A stretch of DNA of 64,000 nucleotides from Roseivirga misakiensis (GTDB lineage Bacteria > Bacteroidota > Bacteroidia > Cytophagales > Cyclobacteriaceae): assembly GCF_001747105.1 (NCBI RefSeq), contig NZ_MDGQ01000005.1, forward strand, positions 2,232,001-2,296,000. Reading direction: 5' to 3'. Numbering within the stretch: the stretch's first letter is position 1; each line of letters opens with the position of its first letter. Under the pieces are notes generated by a model. The model was not told the origin of the DNA and did no database searches. It worked only from the letters and a program-made list of their open reading frames with translations. A program made the translations under genes and the position numbers. This document shows positions 26,616-63,059 of this stretch, in pieces.

Positions 26616-27710
26616 TTAAATCAAAAGTGAAGCGATACCATCTACTGGATTATGCTTCCAATAATTATCTTCAGCAAGCAACCTGCTTTTTTCAGCCATA
26701 GTTGGTAACAGTACTCTTTGCAAAGAAATCTCCAATAGTGCATTGGCCACAGAAGTCACCTCGTTTTCAAAAAGGAATCCATCTTCTCCGTGCATGATCA
26801 CATTATTAATTCCTTCTACATCTGAGGCCAATATGGTAAGGCCACAGGCCTGAGCTTCCATGATGCAATAGCAGACAGTTTCACCCTCACTAGCATGTGC
26901 GTAGGCATCAAGCGACTGATAAAAGTGGAGAATTTCTTTACTGGTTAGTCTACCTGTAAACTCAACTTGGTCATGCAGACCCAGCATAGCTACTAGCTCT
27001 TGACATGTGTTTAGGTTTGGACCATCTCCTGCTATTCTCAAATGTATGGTTTGACCCTGGTCTTTTAGATACTTAACCGCCTCTATTAGTAAATCATGTC
27101 TTTTCCCCTGTATGATTCGAGCAGTAGTGCCAATTGTGAATGGCCTGCCAGACTCATTATCTAGTTGCTGAGGTTTAAAAATGTCGATATCTACGGTTTT
27201 AGGTAAGAAAGAGGTGTGCGCTCCGATTTTTAAGAACGGAAATTTACTTTTCAAAAGTTGAAACTGATCACGATAAAAGTAGATTGCTTTAAAGGCCAAA
27301 AGATGATTCAAAGCAGTGTAAATCCATTCCAACCGCGTCTTCACCTGATAGGGCGTATGATCTATGCTGATTACTTTGACGTAACGCCTGATCCTCCAAT
27401 AAAAAGGGCTAAGGCTGAAAGTGTGTAGCAAGGCATATGTAATCTCATTTTTCTTAATGAAACTCTTACAAGCCTTGAATGCCGCAAAGTCAAGCTTACC
27501 GTTTCTCCTTAGGTATTGATAAGTAATTTGATGCTGTTGACAAAACGTTTCATATTCTTCATAAAGTGGTTCTATACCGTAAAAGAAAGCGAAGTGTTGA
27601 AAACGCCTTTTCTTATCTATCCTCACAAAATTCTGAAAGTAGGTACCCAAACCACCTTGGCCGGAGTACAGGATATGAGCAATCTTTATAGGAGCATTCG
27701 TTTTGCTCAT
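26616..27710 (-). CDS. Glycosyltransferase family 4
   Basis: 364-residue GT-B glycosyltransferase. KIAHILYSGQGGLGTYFQNF is the acceptor-domain start, IGTTARIIQGKRHDLLIEAV the donor-domain start, LRIAGDGPNLNTC and YAHASEGETVCYCIMEAQACGLTILASDVEGINNVI (E-x7-E) complete it. It overlaps the upstream gene by 4 bases and is the last gene before the 123-base gap and internal promoter. Likely adds one residue of the variable part of the repeat unit. Confidence 0.9.
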   Translation of the reverse strand: MSKTNAPIKIAHILYSGQGGLGTYFQNFVRIDKKRRFQHFAFFYGIEPLYEEYETFCQQHQITYQYLRRNGKLDFAAFKACKSFIKKNEITYALLHTFSLSPFYWRIRRYVKVISIDHTPYQVKTRLEWIYTALNHLLAFKAIYFYRDQFQLLKSKFPFLKIGAHTSFLPKTVDIDIFKPQQLDNESGRPFTIGTTARIIQGKRHDLLIEAVKYLKDQGQTIHLRIAGDGPNLNTCQELVAMLGLHDQVEFTGRLTSKEILHFYQSLDAYAHASEGETVCYCIMEAQACGLTILASDVEGINNVIMHGEDGFLFENEVTSVANALLEISLQRVLLPTMAEKSRLLAEDNYWKHNPVDGIASLLI

Positions 27711-28876
27711 GAAAGTGCCGAATTAAGTAATACGCTTCCGCTGGGGTTTATGAAGTTCTCTTTTATCGACTGTCTGACTTCTTTATCGGGATCGTTTGAA
27801 AAACTAATCTCTTCCTTAGTGAAATCGAAAAAGCCCAGAACTGGCAAATTAACCTCTTTTAAAAGAGCTTCTTGCAGTCCAGAGTAAAATATCTTAAAAA
27901 GACAGGTGGGTTTCCAATACACGGCCGGCACAATCATGGTGGAGTAAAAGCCAAAACAGGCACGGGCGCTTTGCATATACTGATTTAAGTTGTCTACTTG
28001 CTTCAAATAAACAATGTTTGGATCATTCGGAAGCCAGTTTGATGAATAAGTTTCAGGGTGAAGCTTGATAAAAAGTCTGGCCCCTTTTGAAAGGCAATAT
28101 TCATTCAGTTTGTGGTAAAACTGAACCATACTTTCCTTACTTACAGTTTCTTCTCCAAATGAATTATCGGCCAGTGCCTGATCTATATGCAGGTAAAAAT
28201 CTTCTAATATCAGTTCCTCTTCCGGCTTAAGGAATTTGGCCAGTTCATGGCTGCCAATATAGGTTATATGGTTTTCAGAAATTCGGTCTGTCTCGCGGTG
28301 AATGGTTGCGTTATTAGGGCTAAAGCAAAGGTATTCGTCGGCCCGCTTCATCTTAAGTGGAATGTATCTGGAAGCCCAATAAGGACCTATTTTTTGTTGA
28401 GCCCGTGTGTATATCAGGATTGGAAACAGGCGCCAAAGACTCTTGGGTTTAAATGAGTTCTTAAGGAACCGACCCGTACTAAATCCCGCTGCACTACTTT
28501 CAATCTTGGCCTCTTTCGCCTTGCCGCCCTTTCTCCACAACTTCTCCCTGATACGATAGTCTTTGTAATTGGTGAATATACCATGCTGAAGCACATAGGT
28601 CTTGATCCCTCTTTTCTTTGCAAGGGTATTCAAGGCAATACTCAAACCAGATTCTATAGACATGTAAATGACTGCATCTGGCTTAAGTTGGTCGAGCATG
28701 TCATTTACCGAGGTAAATTCTGACCAATAATGACAATCGAAGCCCTTTGCGTAATTGGGTGTTTGTGGAAAGAGAGATGGAATAAAAGTAAAGTGAAACT
28801 CATCTTTCAGCTCAAGAAAAGTGCTGATCCAGTCTTTTCTGATGGTTGGCCAGATGACCAGGAAATGCTTCTTCAA
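27707..28876 (-). CDS. GT-B transferase with K-x-H-P motif, possible CMP-sugar-dependent transferase
   Basis: 389-residue predicted cytoplasmic GT-B protein. GIKTYVLQHGIF in the N-terminal half and RLFIKLHPETYSSNWL in the C-terminal half, then ARACFGFYSTMIVPAVYWKP, are the pattern seen in capsule transferases such as polysialyltransferases, KpsS/KpsC and CDP-glycerol transferases, where the H-P pair contacts the cytidine nucleotide. It follows HAD, NeuB-like and SpsF-like genes, so transfer of a CMP-activated ulosonic acid is the best inference. Exact family not recognised. Confidence 0.6.
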   Translation of the reverse strand: MKKHFLVIWPTIRKDWISTFLELKDEFHFTFIPSLFPQTPNYAKGFDCHYWSEFTSVNDMLDQLKPDAVIYMSIESGLSIALNTLAKKRGIKTYVLQHGIFTNYKDYRIREKLWRKGGKAKEAKIESSAAGFSTGRFLKNSFKPKSLWRLFPILIYTRAQQKIGPYWASRYIPLKMKRADEYLCFSPNNATIHRETDRISENHITYIGSHELAKFLKPEEELILEDFYLHIDQALADNSFGEETVSKESMVQFYHKLNEYCLSKGARLFIKLHPETYSSNWLPNDPNIVYLKQVDNLNQYMQSARACFGFYSTMIVPAVYWKPTCLFKIFYSGLQEALLKEVNLPVLGFFDFTKEEISFSNDPDKEVRQSIKENFINPSGSVLLNSALS

Positions 28877-28882
28877 TTCTTC

Positions 28883-30419
<1,537 letters not shown>

Positions 30420-30427
30420 GGAGTTCT

Positions 30428-31168
30428 TTATTTGTTAAATTTCGCGATTCCTTCTTTCATTTCTTTCAAAAAATGCTGGTGAGCATCTACTATGTCCACC
30501 AGCCCCTTGATTGAAGAAGCTTCTTTTTGACTTACCAGCGTTGCAAGATTCTGCATATTATTAAAATCTTGCTCGGTATCAATAGTAAAGCGTAAATCAT
30601 TCCTGTGAATTATCTCTGCCACAGCCGGAATAAGCTCGACATCAAATTTATCAGCGTGTCCATAAATGAAATTGGTCACATGCTCCCGATAGAAAGATTC
30701 ATCATCTTCCAAGAGCGCATCTGCCTTTTTTAGGGCTTTCAGCGAAACTCCCTCAACAAACAGGCCCCAGTGCTTTCGAATAGCAGGCACACCTTCGTAA
30801 TCAGAAAAGCTCACGTAATCTACTCCTGCTTTTAACTTCTGCAAAAAGCCCGTAATGTCGGTTGTCTGTATAAAGGGGTTGTCGGAACAAATGCGGATCA
30901 GGAATTCTGCATCATGTTGCTCAGCGCAATCAATGAATCGCTGTAATACATTATGCTCTGAACCTCTGAAAAACTGGACCTCATTTTTTTGAGCCCATTC
31001 AACCAGCAGATCGTCCGCTTTATTAGTGGTTGTGGCCAGGACAAATGGAAGCTTCAGGGCCTTTAATGCCTCAAACTGCAAATCGAGTATGGACTTGCCA
31101 TTGAAGAAAGGTTTTAAAATCTTTCCAGGTAGTCTTGCTGAGGAAAGTCTGGCTTGTACAATAATCAA
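30428..31168 (-). CDS. SpsF-like cytidylyltransferase
   Basis: 246-residue nucleotidyltransferase of the SpsF/KdsB-related group. IIVQARLSSARLPGKILKP is the diagnostic nucleotide-binding start, with ATTTNKADDLLVEWA and RICSDNPFIQTTDI (metal-binding Asp) following. It should form a CMP- or other NDP-activated sugar from CTP. Context points to CMP-activation of the product of the NeuB-like enzyme, 8 bases downstream. A second, NeuA-type cytidylyltransferase lies at 33750, so the two probably serve different sugars. Confidence 0.88.
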   Translation of the reverse strand: MIIVQARLSSARLPGKILKPFFNGKSILDLQFEALKALKLPFVLATTTNKADDLLVEWAQKNEVQFFRGSEHNVLQRFIDCAEQHDAEFLIRICSDNPFIQTTDITGFLQKLKAGVDYVSFSDYEGVPAIRKHWGLFVEGVSLKALKKADALLEDDESFYREHVTNFIYGHADKFDVELIPAVAEIIHRNDLRFTIDTEQDFNNMQNLATLVSQKEASSIKGLVDIVDAHQHFLKEMKEGIAKFNK

Positions 31169-31171
31169 TGG

Positions 31172-31867
31172 TCAAAAATTGAGTGTGTCCAAATCTGAAG
31201 AGTAGCCTAACGCTTCAAAATCTCTTGAATAAAACGCTTTCAAATCGCTGATCAGCGCTTTATGCTCTGAAAGGTCCATGTTGCTCCGTTTTGACGTGTT
31301 TTTGCGAGATAGTGTCTTTAAGAGAAACTTCAATTGACTGCTCAGTCTTTCAATATCTGTATCAAGGTCTTCGAGCTTCATGATGAAGTCGACCGGCTTG
31401 TCTGACAAGTGATGCTTCAGGTAGTCTACTTGTGGCCTGATCACGAATGGCTCCGATTTGAATACTTCAAAGTATTGGTTGAGGGAGAAAGATTCCAGAC
31501 CAGGGTATTTCGACTTAAAAATCCCATTGTATTCAGGCTTGGTATGATAAAAGTAGGAGCTCAAAAACCGATCAATCGGATGCCGGACAGCCACAATGCT
31601 AAAGTATTCTTCCCAAATGGATTTAGGTACTAAAAATGACGGTGTGCTATGGCTTGATTTAAAGTTGGCTTTTCTCAATCCAAGCACATCTAATACACTG
31701 TTTCCTGCTGCCTTGGGATTGTGAACAAACAGGATTTTACGGGAATGATCAAAATTGGCCAGGTCCCGCTCAAACGCCTTCCGCAAGTTGAATTTGTAAA
31801 AACCAAAAGCACTTACCACTGCGGTACTATTGGTACGATATATTTTGTTAAAAATTAGCTCCTTCAA
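31172..31867 (-). CDS. Sulfotransferase, family 2-like
   Basis: 231 residues with the PAPS-binding loop KILFVHNPKAAGNSVLDVLG (5'-phosphosulfate binding, normally IPKAAGTS) and the 3'-phosphate-binding segment VAVRHPIDRFLSSYFY, both as in carbohydrate sulfotransferases of the Sulfotransfer_2 group. It would transfer sulfate from PAPS to a sugar hydroxyl or to a sugar in the repeat unit. No PAPS-producing genes are in the window. It overlaps the upstream gene by 4 bases and lies between the two CMP-sugar modules. Confidence 0.8.
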   Translation of the reverse strand: MKELIFNKIYRTNSTAVVSAFGFYKFNLRKAFERDLANFDHSRKILFVHNPKAAGNSVLDVLGLRKANFKSSHSTPSFLVPKSIWEEYFSIVAVRHPIDRFLSSYFYHTKPEYNGIFKSKYPGLESFSLNQYFEVFKSEPFVIRPQVDYLKHHLSDKPVDFIMKLEDLDTDIERLSSQLKFLLKTLSRKNTSKRSNMDLSEHKALISDLKAFYSRDFEALGYSSDLDTLNF

Positions 31868-33105
31868 TTTAAACTTGATTTAATAGAAGAGTAAAATACC
31901 TGAACAAATGCCTGAAACCGCTGGGCCAAAGAGACATTATTAGTTCGCTTTGTTTCTTTAAGCGTTTGCAACATCACTTCAGCGGCTGAACCAGAGTTTT
32001 CAAAAACTTCATTGAAACGTTTGAATCTTTCAGCCTTGACCTGTTCTATATTACTCATCATTTGACTTAGGGCCTCATTCAGTTCCTTTTGATTGGTAGC
32101 CGTATTGGTCAAATCCAATATGTTATAATAAGAGGTTCTTGAACCGTCTTCATAAGTGAACCACTTGGTGTAGCCACCTTCAAATTTATAATATTCGATG
32201 GAAGGGATTTTCTGTGACAGCAGATCGGTGGTCACTGATGTCCAAAAATTAACTGCAAAATCTACTTTCCTACTTAGTACAAAAGGATTTGAGTAAACAA
32301 AGCTGTATCGGTCATTCGGATAATTGCTGAGTTTCTTTTTTAAGTCCTCAAAGTTTTGACGGGGATGCGGCTTGATCAGAACAAAGGCATTGGGTATCGT
32401 AAAAAGCTCTTCCAGGGCAGTATCCATGAGGTAATGATAGTTTTCTTCCTCCAACAAAATGGGTTTCGGCCCTCTGATGGCGAAGAGAATATTGAGTTTA
32501 CCCTCGTTCACGATTTGCGCTTCGGGCCTGTCAATGGCGTTAGCACTGTCAATTACTTTTTCTACCCATTCGATATGGTAGCCCAAAGCACCCACTACTT
32601 TGATTCGGTCATGCATAATCCTGGATGACCAGTAGCTGATGTCATATTTAGAGTTGAGTACCAGAAGGTCATAACAAGCCTGATCGTGCGATTTAGGATC
32701 ATATACGAAATTATCGACCCTTTGATCATAACCATATAAAGCAAAAGAGTGGGGAAACAGAATTAGAGCGGCATTGGTGCAAACCTGCCTGATCTTGTTG
32801 GCGAGGCTTCCCTGATGAATAGGCCAGAAATCTTTAAATATATACCTGACCTGTGAGCCATTGCGCCATAGAAAACCAAACAGTGACTTCTTTTGGACGA
32901 TCGTTGAGCAGTCTTCCAATAACCGGTAATAAACCCCTTCCTCTTTGATCGATTCAAATACCCGATCTGAAAAGAAAACAGTGCATACTTTGAACCCTTG
33001 CTCTTTAAATGAATGAGCAAACGGAAGAATCCACTGAAGCTCACCTATAGAGGTATGGATGATAATCAGTACGATCTGCTCTTTTTTCGATTCGGCCTTC
33101 AGCAT
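31864..33105 (-). CDS. GT-B transferase with K-x-H-P motif (capsule transferase-like)
   Basis: 413-residue predicted GT-B protein, no signal peptide. IVLIIIHTSIGELQWILPFAHSF begins the first Rossmann domain; the second has ILFAIRGPKPILLEEEN, NAFVLIKPHPRQNFEDL and VDFAVNFWTSVTTDLLSQKIPSIEYY. The K-P-H-P pair and the later S/T cluster match CMP-sialic-acid/CDP-glycerol type capsule transferases. Its gene follows HAD and NeuA-like genes directly, mirroring the arrangement at 27707-31168. Donor and acceptor unknown. Confidence 0.58.
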   Translation of the reverse strand: MLKAESKKEQIVLIIIHTSIGELQWILPFAHSFKEQGFKVCTVFFSDRVFESIKEEGVYYRLLEDCSTIVQKKSLFGFLWRNGSQVRYIFKDFWPIHQGSLANKIRQVCTNAALILFPHSFALYGYDQRVDNFVYDPKSHDQACYDLLVLNSKYDISYWSSRIMHDRIKVVGALGYHIEWVEKVIDSANAIDRPEAQIVNEGKLNILFAIRGPKPILLEEENYHYLMDTALEELFTIPNAFVLIKPHPRQNFEDLKKKLSNYPNDRYSFVYSNPFVLSRKVDFAVNFWTSVTTDLLSQKIPSIEYYKFEGGYTKWFTYEDGSRTSYYNILDLTNTATNQKELNEALSQMMSNIEQVKAERFKRFNEVFENSGSAAEVMLQTLKETKRTNNVSLAQRFQAFVQVFYSSIKSSLN

Positions 33106-33753
33106 TTAGGCACTTTTGAACAGGGTTTCAATCTTTTTCAAGTCGTAGTCATTAAAGGCCTTAACATAGGCATGACCTTCTTCCAAAGTGAGGTTGTTGT
33201 AGCCGATAAAACCAATCTCATTCTTTGAGGCAGCCTCATAATCATTGATAGAATCGCCCACCAGCACTACCTCATGCTTCGGGTAATGCCTGGTATTTAA
33301 GAGGTTTCCTACCAATTCTGCTTTCGGTGTTGGTGATCCATCAATGGATTGGAAAAGGAGGTCGATTTCCAATTGGGCACATAAGTAATTGAGCTCAACA
33401 TGATCGGAGCCAGAAACTATGTGCATGGAGATGTCTTTGTGGTATTTTTTGATAAAGTTAAGCGCGTCTTGAATGAGTAATTCCTTGTTGGTAAGTATCC
33501 TTTTCATGATTACTGAAAAGTGCTGTGCCATTTCATTTACCGTTTCCTCACTAACGCTCTCCCCTCTGATTTGCTCAAAAAAGTACCTGAATTTCACATA
33601 CCTTGACCAGCCACCATTGCGCCTGTGAAAGTCCAAAAGGAATGCTACCTGCTCTTCCGGGTAAGGTTTCAAAACCTCAATAAAGCCCTGGTCTCGCACG
33701 CTCATGGAGTCGAGTATGACCCCATCAAAATCCCAAAAGATAGATTTCATCAT
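33106..33753 (-). CDS. HAD-superfamily phosphatase (PGP-like, with cap)
   Basis: 215-residue HAD hydrolase with a helical C1 cap (about 20-85). Motif I is IFWDFDGVILDSMSVRD, motif II MHIVSGSDHVELN, motif III GSPTPKAELVGN (Lys) and motif IV VVLVGDSINDYEAA. This is the phosphoglycolate-phosphatase-like shape, unlike the cap-less KdsC type at 28883. It overlaps the NeuA-like gene by 4 bases, so it probably removes phosphate from the precursor that the cytidylyltransferase then activates. Confidence 0.85.
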   Translation of the reverse strand: MMKSIFWDFDGVILDSMSVRDQGFIEVLKPYPEEQVAFLLDFHRRNGGWSRYVKFRYFFEQIRGESVSEETVNEMAQHFSVIMKRILTNKELLIQDALNFIKKYHKDISMHIVSGSDHVELNYLCAQLEIDLLFQSIDGSPTPKAELVGNLLNTRHYPKHEVVLVGDSINDYEAASKNEIGFIGYNNLTLEEGHAYVKAFNDYDLKKIETLFKSA

Positions 33754-34448
33754 TGTTTCAACCCTAAATAAACCGCCTCTGCAATCTTATAGTCATCTTC
33801 CCAATCGATGTCCAGTGATGTCATGGCATCCTGTTGGTGAAACCTAACCTTTCGGCCAATCCGGTCTCCCAGTTTTTGATAGTTCTCAACTGAGGACACA
33901 AACGCTGCATGGTTGACCTCATAAATGAGTTTAAGGTCTTGTGTACGTGGCCAGCGGCCTTTACCTTCTGCAGCTGTATTAATGATTGCTCCACTTTCCG
34001 GATCGATCAAAAAATTCTTCAGTTCCTTTACGGTCACCAATGAATCGTAGCCTTCATTCAGCGCTTCAAAGTAAGCCGACACCACCTGATCATAATCAGC
34101 ACCATCTACAAATGGTGTGGTGACATGGCCCCACAGTACATGGGGGCAACTGGTTATTTCTGGCACATAATTGATCAGGTCTGTCAATGCAGTAGTGTTA
34201 AGGCAAAGGTGCTCCGGTCGTTCTATGACATTTAAACGTGGGTCGGAAAACATGGAAGCCACTTCCATAGATGCTTCATCATTGGTAGACAGAATGATCT
34301 CGCTGATGCGTTCTGATTTGATCAGTTGTGAAAGTTTCAATGCCAGCAAGCCTCCCTCAATACCTGCAAAATTCCTAGTATTCTTGTTAATGACCCGGCT
34401 ACTTCCCTTTCGGGTGGGAAGGAAGAAGGTGATTTCAGTTGGGCTCAT
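33750..34448 (-). CDS. NeuA-like CMP-sugar synthetase
   Basis: 232-residue acylneuraminate cytidylyltransferase-family protein. The CTP-binding loop is FLPTRKGSSRVINKNTRNF, followed by IILSTNDEASMEVA and LWGHVTTPFVDGADYDQV (equivalent of the VQPTSPL.. segment), and LDIDWEDDYKIAEAV at the end (metal-binding Asp pair). It activates a 2-keto-3-deoxy acid as its CMP derivative. There is no NeuB beside it; instead the adjoining gene encodes a DRE-TIM aldolase fusion that overlaps it by 4 bases. Confidence 0.88.
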   Translation of the reverse strand: MSPTEITFFLPTRKGSSRVINKNTRNFAGIEGGLLALKLSQLIKSERISEIILSTNDEASMEVASMFSDPRLNVIERPEHLCLNTTALTDLINYVPEITSCPHVLWGHVTTPFVDGADYDQVVSAYFEALNEGYDSLVTVKELKNFLIDPESGAIINTAAEGKGRWPRTQDLKLIYEVNHAAFVSSVENYQKLGDRIGRKVRFHQQDAMTSLDIDWEDDYKIAEAVYLGLKQ

Positions 34449-35992
34449 ATTTTTGCGTAGACTGATATCTCAGACAGTGACTCGTATTTAGTTGGGGTGA
34501 GGGAAGTCAACGTCCCGTGATTCTCCATGAAATTGAGAAACAGGGTCTCATTTTCATTGGCCATTTCCAGCTCTACCTGCCTGATGGCATCTCCTGAATA
34601 ACCGTCATAGCCTGCTAAATAAATGTTTCTCGCTCCTAATTCAATGGCGGTCTGTAAGGCCAATACGGTGTGTGAATCTTTTACTTTGCCGGTGAACTGA
34701 ACCTTCTGTAATTCGAAACTTTTTTCTGCCAATTCGGCCGGCACATAGGTCCCCATTTTTCGGGGGAAAGGTGGTAAAATGCACTTGGACACGAAGTCAA
34801 AACCTGCCGCAGATTGATCCTCCAACCTGTGCCCTTCATTGCCTACAAGGCAAAAGAACTGGTCTTTATTCAGATCTATATAGTAATTGGCATTTTTTGA
34901 ACTGGCATGAACAATGCAAAGATCGGTTTCTTTAGAAGCCCATTCGTTGAGTGCCGCTGCATGGTCAGAAGCAGACGGCCCGCCTCCGATAATCAGGACA
35001 GATTGATAAGATTTTTCAGGACTGAAGGCATTGAACTTAATGTTATCTTCTACTCCTGCGCTTTGGTTATTAAGGGCCTGAACGATACTATTCATAGAAT
35101 AAAACCGCTTACTCACCCATTCCATCACATCTTTCTGTGGCAGGCTATTCGCTCCTGAAACCATGTATGGTAAGTTAGTACCCCACTGGTGCATATCTTG
35201 TAATGGGCCATAGGCAGCCACAACACGACCCAAGGCATTAAAGTCTACCTCTAAGCCAAACTTAGAGCTCAGACAGGTAAGCAGCAGCTCCATTTTCAAA
35301 TTGCCCGCTCCTCTTCCCATGCCTCTGATGGTGGCATCCACTATCTCGGCTCCGGCTTCAATGGCTGTCAGTGTGTTGATCAGGCCTAGTTCCATGTTGT
35401 TATGGCCATGAAAGCCCACCTTGGAGTTTATTTTAGATTTCACCTGGGTTACAATGCTGCGCACATCATCAGGATATACACCCCCAAAAGAATCGACCAA
35501 ATAAAAGTAATCGACTAGGCCATTGACTTGATCTAACTGATCAAAAAAGCCGTCCACCTTGTGCCAATTAGACATGTACATCACGTTGAATGCTACCTCA
35601 TAACCCATGTCTTTTAATCCGCGCGCCAAAGTCACTGCTCTGCCAAAATTCACTGGATTTACCGCTACACGAACCAAATCGATCAAGTCAGTACAATGCC
35701 CTAACAGGGGCTCCAGATCATCCAGTGAAACATCTTTTTCATTCAGCAACACGGCAATCTTTTTAGCGCTCACCTGCCTCACAGCCTTCAGCACAGAGTC
35801 AGGACAATAGAAATATTTACCCAGGTATTCCGATTTCACAGGGCTTCTATAACCTATTTCCAAATAGTCTAAAGGCAGCGATTCACAAGATTTGAGATAG
35901 CTATCTACCAGGGCTTCATCAAAATCCCAATTGGTATAATAGCCCCCATCTCGCAGGGTACAGTCTAATATCTTTACAGACTCTATATTCAT
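34445..35992 (-). CDS. DRE-TIM aldolase fused to a GGGPS (DUF115/GT42-like) domain
   Basis: 515 residues in two parts. Residues 1-280 are an HMGL-like DRE-TIM aldolase: ILDCTLRDGGYYTNWDF (D10, R14, D15), VGFHGHNN with metal ligands H195 and H197, and GMGRGAGN (225-231), as in 4-hydroxy-2-oxovalerate aldolases. Residues about 328-515 form a second domain starting SVLIIGGGPSASDH and holding NIYLAGYDGYSGD; this GxGPS pattern recalls DUF115/Maf and GT42 sialyltransferases. It overlaps the NeuA-like gene by 4 bases and the GT2 gene by 4. I infer synthesis of a 2-keto acid sugar from pyruvate plus an aldehyde; the second domain's role is open. Confidence 0.78.
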   Translation of the reverse strand: MNIESVKILDCTLRDGGYYTNWDFDEALVDSYLKSCESLPLDYLEIGYRSPVKSEYLGKYFYCPDSVLKAVRQVSAKKIAVLLNEKDVSLDDLEPLLGHCTDLIDLVRVAVNPVNFGRAVTLARGLKDMGYEVAFNVMYMSNWHKVDGFFDQLDQVNGLVDYFYLVDSFGGVYPDDVRSIVTQVKSKINSKVGFHGHNNMELGLINTLTAIEAGAEIVDATIRGMGRGAGNLKMELLLTCLSSKFGLEVDFNALGRVVAAYGPLQDMHQWGTNLPYMVSGANSLPQKDVMEWVSKRFYSMNSIVQALNNQSAGVEDNIKFNAFSPEKSYQSVLIIGGGPSASDHAAALNEWASKETDLCIVHASSKNANYYIDLNKDQFFCLVGNEGHRLEDQSAAGFDFVSKCILPPFPRKMGTYVPAELAEKSFELQKVQFTGKVKDSHTVLALQTAIELGARNIYLAGYDGYSGDAIRQVELEMANENETLFLNFMENHGTLTSLTPTKYESLSEISVYAKI

Positions 35993-62218: not shown

Positions 62219-63059
62219 TTAAATCTATTTTGGCATTTTGTCCTAGATCAAACGCTGCTTTAGACATTACCAAGAATTCGTTCATTTTATGAAGAGGCAC
62301 CATATTTGGACCGTCACTGAGTGCTTTTGATGGGTCTGGATGAGTCTCTATAAAGAATCCATCCACTCCAGCAGCCCCAGCTGCTCTTGCTAGATATGGT
62401 GCAAATTCTTTTTGTCCGCCAGAACTACCTCCAGCTCCACCAGGTTGCTGAACGCTATGCGTCACATCAAAAACCACAGGTGCAAATTGTCTCATTGTTG
62501 GCAAGGCACGCATATCAACCACCAAGTTGTGATACCCGAAGGAGACACCTCTTTCAGTCAAGCAAACCTTGTTATTTCCAGTTGATTTCACCTTGTTTAC
62601 AGCATACTGCATATCCTCAGGTGCCATAAACTGGCCTCGTTTGATTTTAACCGTTTTTCCCGTTTCCCCTGCTGCCACTAATAGGTCAGTTTGTCTACAT
62701 AAATAAGCCGGAATTTGCAATGCTTGCGCCACGTCACTCACAGGATTAGCTTGATTTGGCTCGTGAATGTCGGTGACTATCGGAAGGTCAAATTCGCGTT
62801 TAATCTTGTCTAATACGCTTAGCCCTTCATCTAACCCTACCCCTCTAAAAGAATTAACAGAAGTTCGGTTAGCTTTATCAAATGATGCTTTAAATACATA
62901 TTGAATGTTAAGTCGTTGACAAGTTTCTTTCAGTGTTTCTGCCACTTTTGCACACACATCATAACTTTCAACTGCACATGGTCCTGAGAACAACACCATA
63001 TTCCCATTTCCCATCACAATATCATCAGCTATATTAAAGCTTTCTTTGAATTTATCCAT
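62211..63059 (-). CDS. kdsA: 3-deoxy-8-phosphooctulonate synthase
   Basis: KdsA, 282 residues, condensing PEP and arabinose-5-phosphate to Kdo-8-phosphate. Motifs: LFSGPCAVESYDVC, FKASFDKANRTSVNSFRGVGLDEGL, VTDIHEP, LTERGVSFGYHNLVVDMR and PVVFDVTHSVQQPGG. GPCAVE and the D-M-R segment are KDO synthase marks. Its presence at the head of a capsule operon is common. It shares one base (TAATG) with kdsC; kdsB and kdsD are not in the window. Confidence 0.96.
   Translation of the reverse strand: MDKFKESFNIADDIVMGNGNMVLFSGPCAVESYDVCAKVAETLKETCQRLNIQYVFKASFDKANRTSVNSFRGVGLDEGLSVLDKIKREFDLPIVTDIHEPNQANPVSDVAQALQIPAYLCRQTDLLVAAGETGKTVKIKRGQFMAPEDMQYAVNKVKSTGNNKVCLTERGVSFGYHNLVVDMRALPTMRQFAPVVFDVTHSVQQPGGAGGSSGGQKEFAPYLARAAGAAGVDGFFIETHPDPSKALSDGPNMVPLHKMNEFLVMSKAAFDLGQNAKIDLND

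Follow-up and report, generated by a model that had tools for sequence, protein, structure and literature searches.

Module 2 of the analyzed window, a 64,000-nucleotide stretch of the Roseivirga misakiensis genome, is predicted with a probability of roughly 0.7 to make its own CMP-activated 3-deoxy-2-ketoaldonic acid by way of an aldolase fusion (ALD), a HAD phosphatase (HAD2), a cytidylyltransferase (CT2), and a transferase (GT2), different from the acid of the adjacent KDN-type module 1. The initial annotation had described eight genes in two CMP-ulosonate-type modules with different carbon–carbon-forming enzymes, and both points are borne out. An ORF check of the window recovered all eight genes at the coordinates first assigned to them, each on the minus strand and all but the GT-B transferase of module 2 with family support, and the two carbon–carbon-forming enzymes belong to NeuB (PF03102) and the HMGL-like family (PF00682), respectively. 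A ninth gene between the modules (31172–31867, minus strand) is of the sulfotransferase family (PF03567, 9.3e-10). Roseivirga thermotolerans (locus L022, identical to L036) repeats the order ALD-CT-HAD-GT followed by CT-NeuB-HAD-GT.

Judged by its sequence matches, module 1 appears to be an ordinary KDN-type CMP-nonulosonate set, whose product is probably KDN. Its SpsF/KdsB-like cytidylyltransferase CT1 (30428–31168) matches CTP_transf_3 (PF02348; 2.9e-21, 76.7 bits, cut-off 22.6) and the KdsB models of NCBIfam only far below their cut-offs; it is the candidate CMP-KDN synthetase. The module further contains a NeuB-family ulosonate(-phosphate) synthase with a SAF domain (29373–30419; PF03102, 1.3e-67; PF08666, 8e-12), which reaches 281 bits against TIGR03569 (cut-off 399.65), the KdsC-like phosphatase HAD1 of the KDN-9-phosphate phosphatase type (28883–29371; NF058599, 258.5 bits, cut-off 180), and GT1, a GT-B enzyme of the polysialyltransferase family (27707–28876; PF07388, 3.7e-9, 37 bits, cut-off 23.3). 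These three supply the NeuB-family synthase, KDN-9-phosphate phosphatase, and CMP-sialic-type transferase of a KDN-type set. The sialic-, legionaminic-, or pseudaminic-acid logic originally invoked for both modules is hence corrected for module 1 to a phosphorylated KDN-type route on the strength of NF058599; bacterial Neu5Ac, legionaminic, and pseudaminic acid synthases are not known to require a phosphatase. By this known route, NeuB-type condensation with PEP, KDN-9-phosphate dephosphorylation, CMP activation, and transfer by the polysialyltransferase-family enzyme would proceed via CMP-KDN or a close C9 relative.

In module 2, carbon–carbon bond formation would fall to ALD (34445–35992, 515 aa; PF00682, 8.3e-20), whose N-terminal part, about residues 1–315, is a DmpG-like DRE-TIM aldolase domain. 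ALD matches PDB entry 3dxi with 407.6 bits over residues 5–316, and a Foldseek search with its structure model (pLDDT 95.5, pTM 0.90) returned 3dxi first and DmpG-type aldolases next. An ALD profile searched against the PDB matched DmpG-type enzymes at 2.3e-31 to 1e-26 and citramalate synthase at 1.9e-17. Profile and modeled fold both place ALD closer to the aldol than to the Claisen branch of the superfamily. R14, D15, H195, H197, and N231 are invariant among 69 aligned sequences, the window included, and the metal and enolate residues of DmpG (Arg, Asp, HxH) are present in ALD. In contrast to DmpG, the motif LRDGGYY of ALD carries a tyrosine, as aligned with 4lrs, in place of the histidine of LRDGxH, which we take to be catalytic; Tyr18 is found in at least 90% of the 69 sequences. 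The C-terminal domain of ALD (residues about 328–515; 34448–35011, minus strand) is Rossmann-like and resembles MptE and GT42 proteins, with 21 bits against PF01973 (cut-off 34.6) and no Pfam model of either family above cut-off. A profile of 45 such domains reached α-2,3-sialyltransferase 2p2v (E 0.015) and MptE 8sd5 (E 0.044), neither being significant, while hhalign aligned it to stand-alone GT42-like proteins with 93.7% over 42 columns. A possible role of this domain is to bind the CMP sugar or to pass it on.

The CMP-ulosonate-type cytidylyltransferase CT2 (33750–34448), of the NeuA/PseF type, matches PF02348 (1.1e-9, 38.9 bits, cut-off 22.6) and, far below the cut-off of 205.7, the PseF model TIGR03584 (6.6e-11, 42.3 bits), and HAD2 (33106–33753) is a HAD-IA phosphatase (HAD_2, PF13419, 3e-12). 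ALD overlaps CT2 and CT2 overlaps HAD2 by 4 nt each, and HAD2 abuts GT2, as in a translationally coupled operon. GT2 (31864–33105) is a putative GT-B transferase. Since it has no Pfam or NCBIfam match at E ≤ 0.01, its GT-B nature rests on the K-P-H-P motif noted at the outset and on a low-confidence model (pLDDT 53) with mixed GT-B-fold matches, including polysialyltransferase, WaaA, and many UDP-sugar enzymes. Pfam, NCBIfam, PDB sequences, a viral scan, a search of 395 genomes, and the structure model yielded neither a known family nor a donor for GT2, which occurs in 2 of the 395 sampled Bacteroidota genomes, both Roseivirga, and whose profile attained at best 36% probability among the neighbors of other loci, to a cluster named by eye as 2-epimerase-like. 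The proposal that both GT-B enzymes belong to cytidine-donor families thus holds for GT1 and finds no family match in GT2.

The order of the route in module 2 is most likely condensation, dephosphorylation, CMP-ulosonate formation, and transfer. The metal-dependent domain of ALD would form a pyruvate enolate and add it to an aldehyde, probably phosphorylated; HAD2 would remove the phosphate from the condensation product, CT2 would couple the 2-keto acid to CMP, and the transferase (GT2 here, GT29- or GT42-like in many other genomes) would place the sugar on a surface glycan. While families and gene order are read directly from the locus, we infer the synthetic aldol direction, the pyruvate donor, the phosphorylated acceptor, the final sugar, and the donor of GT2.

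The ALD-CT pairing recurs in several phyla, as directly observed among the 80 closest of 578 cellular ALD relatives and in 11 additional phylum and plasmid loci. In 72 of the 80 and in all 11, a same-strand cytidylyltransferase is found no farther than 6 kb from ALD, mostly as the next gene; these counts refer to the cytidylyltransferase superfamily and not to CT types, as the three length-limited CT profiles converge to one superfamily. Five of the eight cellular loci without CT end at a contig edge, so that an aldolase fusion traveling without a cytidylyltransferase, the observation that was to speak against the original reading, is not seen as a rule. Where CT is downstream, its start follows the ALD stop within 75 bp in 56 of 68 loci; ORF starts were set mechanically, and some CT ORFs therefore overlap ALD. 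A HAD gene was detected near ALD in 54 of the 80 cellular loci and in 11 of 11 phylum and plasmid loci; the former count is a lower bound because the profile missed L103, in which a HAD-looking start is visible by eye, and in six of the 26 loci without a detected HAD the available sequence stops at ALD. Among the Pelagibacteraceae, three loci (L074, L077, L080) lack a same-strand CT within 6 kb; in L080 a CT lies on the opposite strand, upstream sequence of L074 extends over just 1.9 kb, and a B12-radical-SAM gene follows ALD in L077 and L080. Two short plasmid relatives (L020, 353 aa; L021, 319 aa) showed no CT within the fetched stretch. ALD, a KdsB-like CT, and HAD are retained in Leisingera at 27–29% ALD identity, where records name the ALD-type genes “aldolase catalytic domain-containing”, and the module was likewise found in one isolate and one MAG of Bacillota and in a Prochlorococcus genome.

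In phages, the two enzymes are often joined in one polypeptide. ALD and a KdsB-like CT form a single ORF in 38 of 59 viral loci, amounting to 27 distinct proteins, for instance L112:7998–9689 (PF00682, 6.6e-29; PF02348, 5.8e-39). Ten of the 59 have no CT, all with a short ALD of 334–395 aa, one of them cut by the contig end. The fused viral forms are clustered in the tree (3 label changes versus a shuffled mean of 32.9), a quick reconstruction with long branches that supports clustering and not a single origin.

Moreover, sialyltransferase-type genes were observed directly in the neighborhood of ALD. A GT29- or GT42-like gene is no more than 6 kb away in 24 of the 80 cellular loci and in 33 of the 59 viral ones; the other 56 cellular loci gave no GT29/GT42-like match within this distance. 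The cellular count would rise to 32 with one of the three seed sets (cluster 4 plus L066/L069), which mixes a real PF07388 protein with a cluster whose checked member (L024:4710–5774) lacks a Pfam family, and 24 is the number used. A PF07388 gene precedes ALD in L066. The GT29-type cluster comprises nine proteins from eight cellular loci, eight of them at position +3 after ALD, and the one member checked matches PF00777 above cut-off (1.3e-9). Among phage GT29 candidates, that of the fusion locus L125 exceeds the PF00777 cut-off (4.5e-6), that of L149 falls below it (20.7 versus 23), and that of L111 has no PF00777 match in Pfam. The GT42-like neighbors match α-2,3/8-sialyltransferase in the PDB at 6e-4. 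Of the 755 ORFs within 4 kb of ALD, 37 are transferases, versus 3 of 454 beyond; this comparison is biased by seeds chosen near ALD and does not serve as evidence of enrichment.

The cytidylyltransferases bear on whether module 2 could be a second route to a known acid such as Kdo, KDN, or a heptulosonate, with new chemistry leading to a known sugar. The Leisingera CT beside ALD passes KdsB-named subfamily cut-offs (PRK13368, 261.2 versus 255; PRK05450.1-5, 215.9 versus 193), and the CTs fused in phages match the same family, yet the Leisingera CT remains below the KdsB equivalog cut-offs (TIGR00466, 134.4 versus 155.2). Further, the checked CTs beside ALD differ in the models they match, resembling PseF in the window and in L042 but KdsB-named models in Leisingera, the Roseivirga host has a KdsA-type gene above cut-off (62265–63002 of the window), and the module is present in genomes of Bacillota and Prochlorococcus, which are not typical Kdo makers. 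We consider a second route to a known acid doubtful, though worth bearing in mind. Replacement of the normal Kdo route by module 2 was rejected, given the KdsA-type gene in the window.

An HpcH/HpaI-type aldolase is the gene next to ALD in five loci (L023, L025, L026, L033, L094), with a sixth cluster member in L103 (the family of this second aldolase was checked with PF03328 in L023 and with NCBIfam in both L023 and L025); carbon–carbon bond formation there may thus not depend on ALD alone. A GalE-like SDR is part of the set in L023, L024, L025, L034, and L094 (families checked for L023, L025, and L034), and a PfkB kinase nearest to KDG/KDGal kinases, below every NCBIfam cut-off, follows CT in L042 and L046. 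These neighbors would fit an ALD that is not the main ulosonate former and instead uses a second aldol step to lengthen or branch a sugar that other enzymes (HpcH/HpaI, SDR) have made, or supplies an aldehyde by retro-aldol cleavage. Such a role is unlikely, as the second aldolase occurs among the genes compared in only 6 of the 91 clustered cellular and plasmid loci, a few of which are duplicates, is absent from the window, and the phage fusion links ALD straight to CT.

The best NCBIfam models of ALD are of the DmpG type and public plasmid records call shorter relatives dmpG, which could indicate a 4-hydroxy-2-oxovalerate aldolase of ordinary catabolism, or else a Claisen-type acyl-CoA synthase, that came to lie in a polysaccharide locus by chance; ALD falls below the DmpG cut-offs (108.6 versus 229 and 94.5 versus 286 bits), cytidylyltransferase linkage extends over several phyla, and the ALD-CT fusion strongly disfavors this explanation. 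Phosphonate synthesis is known to employ HMGL-type synthases and CMP activation, and HMGL-like enzymes and cytidylyltransferases co-occur in some of its pathways. As a role for the set it is hardly credible: a scan of 152 loci found no ORF above 200 aa with the PEP-mutase signature EDK(x5)NS, and several nearby transferases are of the sialyltransferase type.

Beyond the window, a slightly better than even case can be made for a widespread, apparently undescribed class in polysaccharide loci of several phyla, in which a DmpG-like pyruvate aldolase, and not a PEP-dependent NeuB/KdsA synthase, forms CMP-ulosonic acids. A single-protein form in uncultivated phages would serve GT29- and GT42-like transferases encoded by the phages themselves, which may thus be able to produce a complete activated acidic sugar out of central metabolites. 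To our knowledge, all activated acidic ketosugars on bacterial surfaces, namely Kdo, KDN, Neu5Ac, Leg, and Pse, derive from PEP through NeuB/KdsA-type synthases. If the aldolase route is real, genome-based prediction that seeks NeuB or KdsA would miss acidic ketosugars, “aldolase catalytic domain-containing” genes in polysaccharide loci would gain a role, and a compact natural aldolase–CMP-synthetase fusion would be on offer for glycan synthesis; the phage form would mean that the central part of a pathway to an activated acid sugar can be virus-encoded.

While module 1 is ordinary, the module 2 set is apparently undescribed: full-text searches of a collection with few subscription journals and no bioRxiv preprints gave no aldolase-based CMP-ulosonate pathway among the matches listed, nor do parts of PMC7678222 and PMC9529941 describe one. 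Among the papers listed by a search for 3dxi, none contained its names; the search needed two terms together and would miss papers giving a single name.

Compared with the KDN-type CMP-nonulosonate pathway, which module 1 matches, module 2 keeps the order of condensation, dephosphorylation, CMP activation, and transfer, but has a DmpG-like aldolase for the PEP-dependent synthase and a HAD-IA enzyme for the KdsC-type phosphatase. The closest characterized enzymes of ALD by profile and fold, DmpG, HsaF, and AmnG, share its DRE-TIM fold, Arg/Asp pair, and HxH metal site, whereas ALD differs from DmpG in scoring below the cut-offs, in Tyr for the catalytic His, in its extra C-terminal domain, and in its cytidylyltransferase and HAD neighbors. 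The putative aldolase BVU_2661 of Bacteroides vulgatus (3dxi) is 54% identical to the ALD N-terminal domain; its structure covers the N-terminal domain only, and the title of the entry assigns it no function. GT42 sialyltransferases (Cst-I/Cst-II) and MptE/Maf-type proteins show weak to clear profile likeness to the ALD C-terminal domain and several neighbors, but the C-terminal domain is shorter and its own matches are sub-threshold. One-pot chemoenzymatic sialylation combines sialic acid aldolase, CMP-sialic acid synthetase, and sialyltransferase in the reaction order of module 2, namely pyruvate aldolase, CMP activation, and transfer. In contrast to this laboratory assembly with its NanA-type lyase, module 2 is naturally linked and its aldolase belongs to another superfamily.

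Module 2 (ALD, CT2, HAD2 and GT2; 31864-35992, minus strand) is a real, recurrent unit. It looks like a putative aldolase-based CMP-ulosonate pathway, a kind for which our full-text literature searches found no description. Both modules lie on the minus strand within a polysaccharide locus of a Roseivirga-type genome and are separated by a sulfotransferase-family gene (31172-31867). The nearest named locus, from R. thermotolerans, is flagged as the same genus and has an ALD 62% identical to that of the window. All eight proteins that the initial annotation had placed in the two modules are present in the window, and the families proposed for them hold for seven. The exception is GT2, the putative GT-B transferase of module 2, which has no family match and is present in 2 of 395 sampled genomes. 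Its structural model, built from two sequences, is poor (pLDDT 53); Foldseek nevertheless returns GT-B folds with it, a polysialyltransferase and WaaA being among the matches, most of which are UDP-sugar and other enzymes. GT2 in this respect counts against the pathway reading.

Module 1 (27707-31168, minus strand) is ordinary and of an already known kind. Its four genes encode a synthase of the NeuB family (PF03102, 1.3e-67), a cytidylyltransferase resembling SpsF/KdsB, a phosphatase scoring 258.5 bits against a cut-off of 180 for the NCBIfam KDN-9-phosphate phosphatase, and a GT-B transferase of the polysialyltransferase family (PF07388). A dedicated phosphatase separates the phosphorylated KDN-type logic from that of the bacterial Neu5Ac, legionaminic and pseudaminic pathways; its presence thus points to a phosphorylated KDN-type route for module 1 rather than to any of the latter three. 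Pairing of ALD with a NeuB module is uncommon beyond Roseivirga, which also counts against the pathway reading; among the printed neighbourhood rows as a whole, NeuB occurs only in L033, L036 (R. thermotolerans), L059, and L081 (L-numbers denote fetched loci with ALD relatives). Near the window end, a gene at 62265-63002 exceeds the cut-off for KdsA (Kdo-8-P synthase), so that the normal Kdo entry enzyme is also present in the window.

Among 395 genomes sampled from the phylum, 15 (counting that of the window) have an ALD match at 1e-20; a full-length ALD is present in nine, one of which holds two copies. Nine regions from eight genomes other than the window's, together with two of the three Leisingera plasmids that give a near-full-length match, make up 11 phylum/plasmid loci. 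In all of them (11/11), the strand of ALD also encodes a cytidylyltransferase no farther than 6 kb away and a HAD phosphatase no farther than 7 kb. Further, a scan of genome_contigs yielded at least 578 relatives. The best 80 of these, i.e., the closest ones, given here as raw counts, comprise 38 loci from Bacteroidota, 35 from Pseudomonadota, two from Bacillota, one each from Balneolota, Campylobacterota, Cyanobacteriota, and Omnitrophota, and one unassigned. Among these best 80, a same-strand cytidylyltransferase lies within 6 kb of ALD in 72 and within 200 bp in 59, and a HAD within 7 kb in 54; no HAD was detected in the other 26, six of which have no sequence past ALD, and this counts against the pathway reading. 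A downstream-starting cytidylyltransferase lies no more than 75 bp past the ALD stop in 56 of 68 loci. Eight of the 80 have no same-strand cytidylyltransferase within 6 kb: five stop at a contig edge at ALD (L040, L067, L075, L086, L099), and the Pelagibacteraceae loci L074, L077, and L080 also lack one, L080 having one on the opposite strand. Two short plasmid-borne ALD relatives (loci L020 and L021) have no cytidylyltransferase within the fetched stretch.

In L077 (9700-11289, by Pfam) and L080 (9702-11291, by a near-identical start), ALD is followed by a B12-binding radical-SAM gene instead of a cytidylyltransferase, and a protein that by eye looks similarly radical-SAM-like sits between ALD and the cytidylyltransferase in L100 (9607-11499).

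A fusion in phages is the strongest single argument for linking the aldolase to CMP activation. ALD and a KdsB-like cytidylyltransferase form a single ORF in 38 of 59 viral-contig loci (27 distinct sequences; the fusions lie within the range L112-L162), as in L112:7998-9689, which matches PF00682 (6.6e-29) and PF02348 (5.8e-39) and is immediately preceded by three glycosyltransferase-like genes. Five of the 38 fusion loci encode a separate cytidylyltransferase as well, and 11 further viral loci have one within 6 kb; the ten viral loci without any all carry short ALD forms of 334-395 aa. A small HAD-like protein, whose Pfam match is below cut-off, is close by in 29 of the 38. Beyond the viral label, genes known from PHROGs mark two contigs as viral: L141 encodes a DNA polymerase, and L136 has clamp-loader and exonuclease genes; the tested ORFs of L117 and L122 gave no PHROGs-type viral marker. 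None of 50,697 GenBank phage records covers 80% of the fusion; the search gave seven partial hits.

Genes resembling GT29, GT42, and PF07388, which are families of CMP-sialic-type transferases, also occur near ALD. One GT29-type neighbour is in the R. pacifica locus L032. A GT29-type cluster contains nine proteins from eight loci, eight of them at position +3 after ALD, and the one member checked (L031:10866-11639) matches PF00777 above cut-off (1.3e-9). The same holds for a GT29-like protein on a fusion-bearing phage contig (L125:14615-15391; 4.5e-6), while of two other phage candidates tested against PF00777, one falls under the cut-off and one has no match. On two further fusion-bearing phage contigs, L112:15196-15972 and L162:13218-14018 are GT29-like sialyltransferases by home-made profile only. 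GT42-like neighbours match alpha-2,3/8-sialyltransferase in the PDB at about 6e-4, and L066 has a PF07388 gene upstream of ALD. With a threshold of E < 1e-4, 24 of the best 80 of at least 578 cellular loci have a GT29- or GT42-like gene no farther than 6 kb away, as do 1 of 11 phylum/plasmid loci and 33 of 59 viral loci (19, 0, and 28 at E < 1e-20); these counts are descriptive, since the seeds of the home-made profiles were drawn near ALD. The C-terminal 190 residues of ALD itself, which include a GYDGY loop, only weakly resemble MptE/GT42 proteins, with PF01973 below cut-off and non-significant PDB matches to alpha-2,3-sialyltransferase (E 0.015) and then MptE (0.044). Against stand-alone GT42-like proteins, hhalign gives 93.7% across 42 columns, and the profile of the latter matches five fetched ALD proteins (region of match not printed). 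Our guess is that this domain handles the CMP sugar.

The side genes may give a clue to the substrate and are consistent with 2-keto-3-deoxy acid chemistry. An HpcH/HpaI aldolase is the next gene after ALD in five loci, with a sixth member farther off in L103; a GalE-like SDR lies within the gene set in five; and a PfkB kinase, nearest to KDG/KDGal kinases although below cut-off, follows the cytidylyltransferase in two. These kinases, straight after ALD and cytidylyltransferase in L042 (10261-11289) and L046 (10307-11335), where no HAD was found, are a possible sign that the product is a hexulosonate. The same three gene types beside ALD leave room for it performing a different aldol step. One genome holds a pair of ALD modules, L025 and L026, separated by about 20 kb, and in each an HpcH/HpaI-type gene follows ALD. 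Additionally, a 212-aa protein is encoded near the module in one Bacteroidota locus (L024:7188-7826, no Pfam family) and three Marinobacter loci (L084:12775-13413, L089:12722-13360, L098:12833-13471).

The pyruvate-aldolase reading of ALD builds on its N-terminal HMGL/DRE-TIM domain. A 69-sequence ALD profile finds 3dxi as the best PDB match (2.1e-142), followed by DmpG-type aldolases (2.3e-31 to 1e-26) and, well behind, citramalate synthase (1.9e-17) and isopropylmalate synthases. Foldseek with the confident AlphaFold model (pLDDT 95.5, pTM 0.90) yields the identical ranking, 3dxi and then DmpG-type. Arg14, Asp15, His195, His197, and Asn231 are unchanged in 69/69 sequences. In contrast to DmpG, however, ALD aligns Tyr18 with the position of the catalytic His. 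Its score lies far under the DmpG cut-offs; it is therefore not filed as DmpG, though it probably functions like a pyruvate aldolase.
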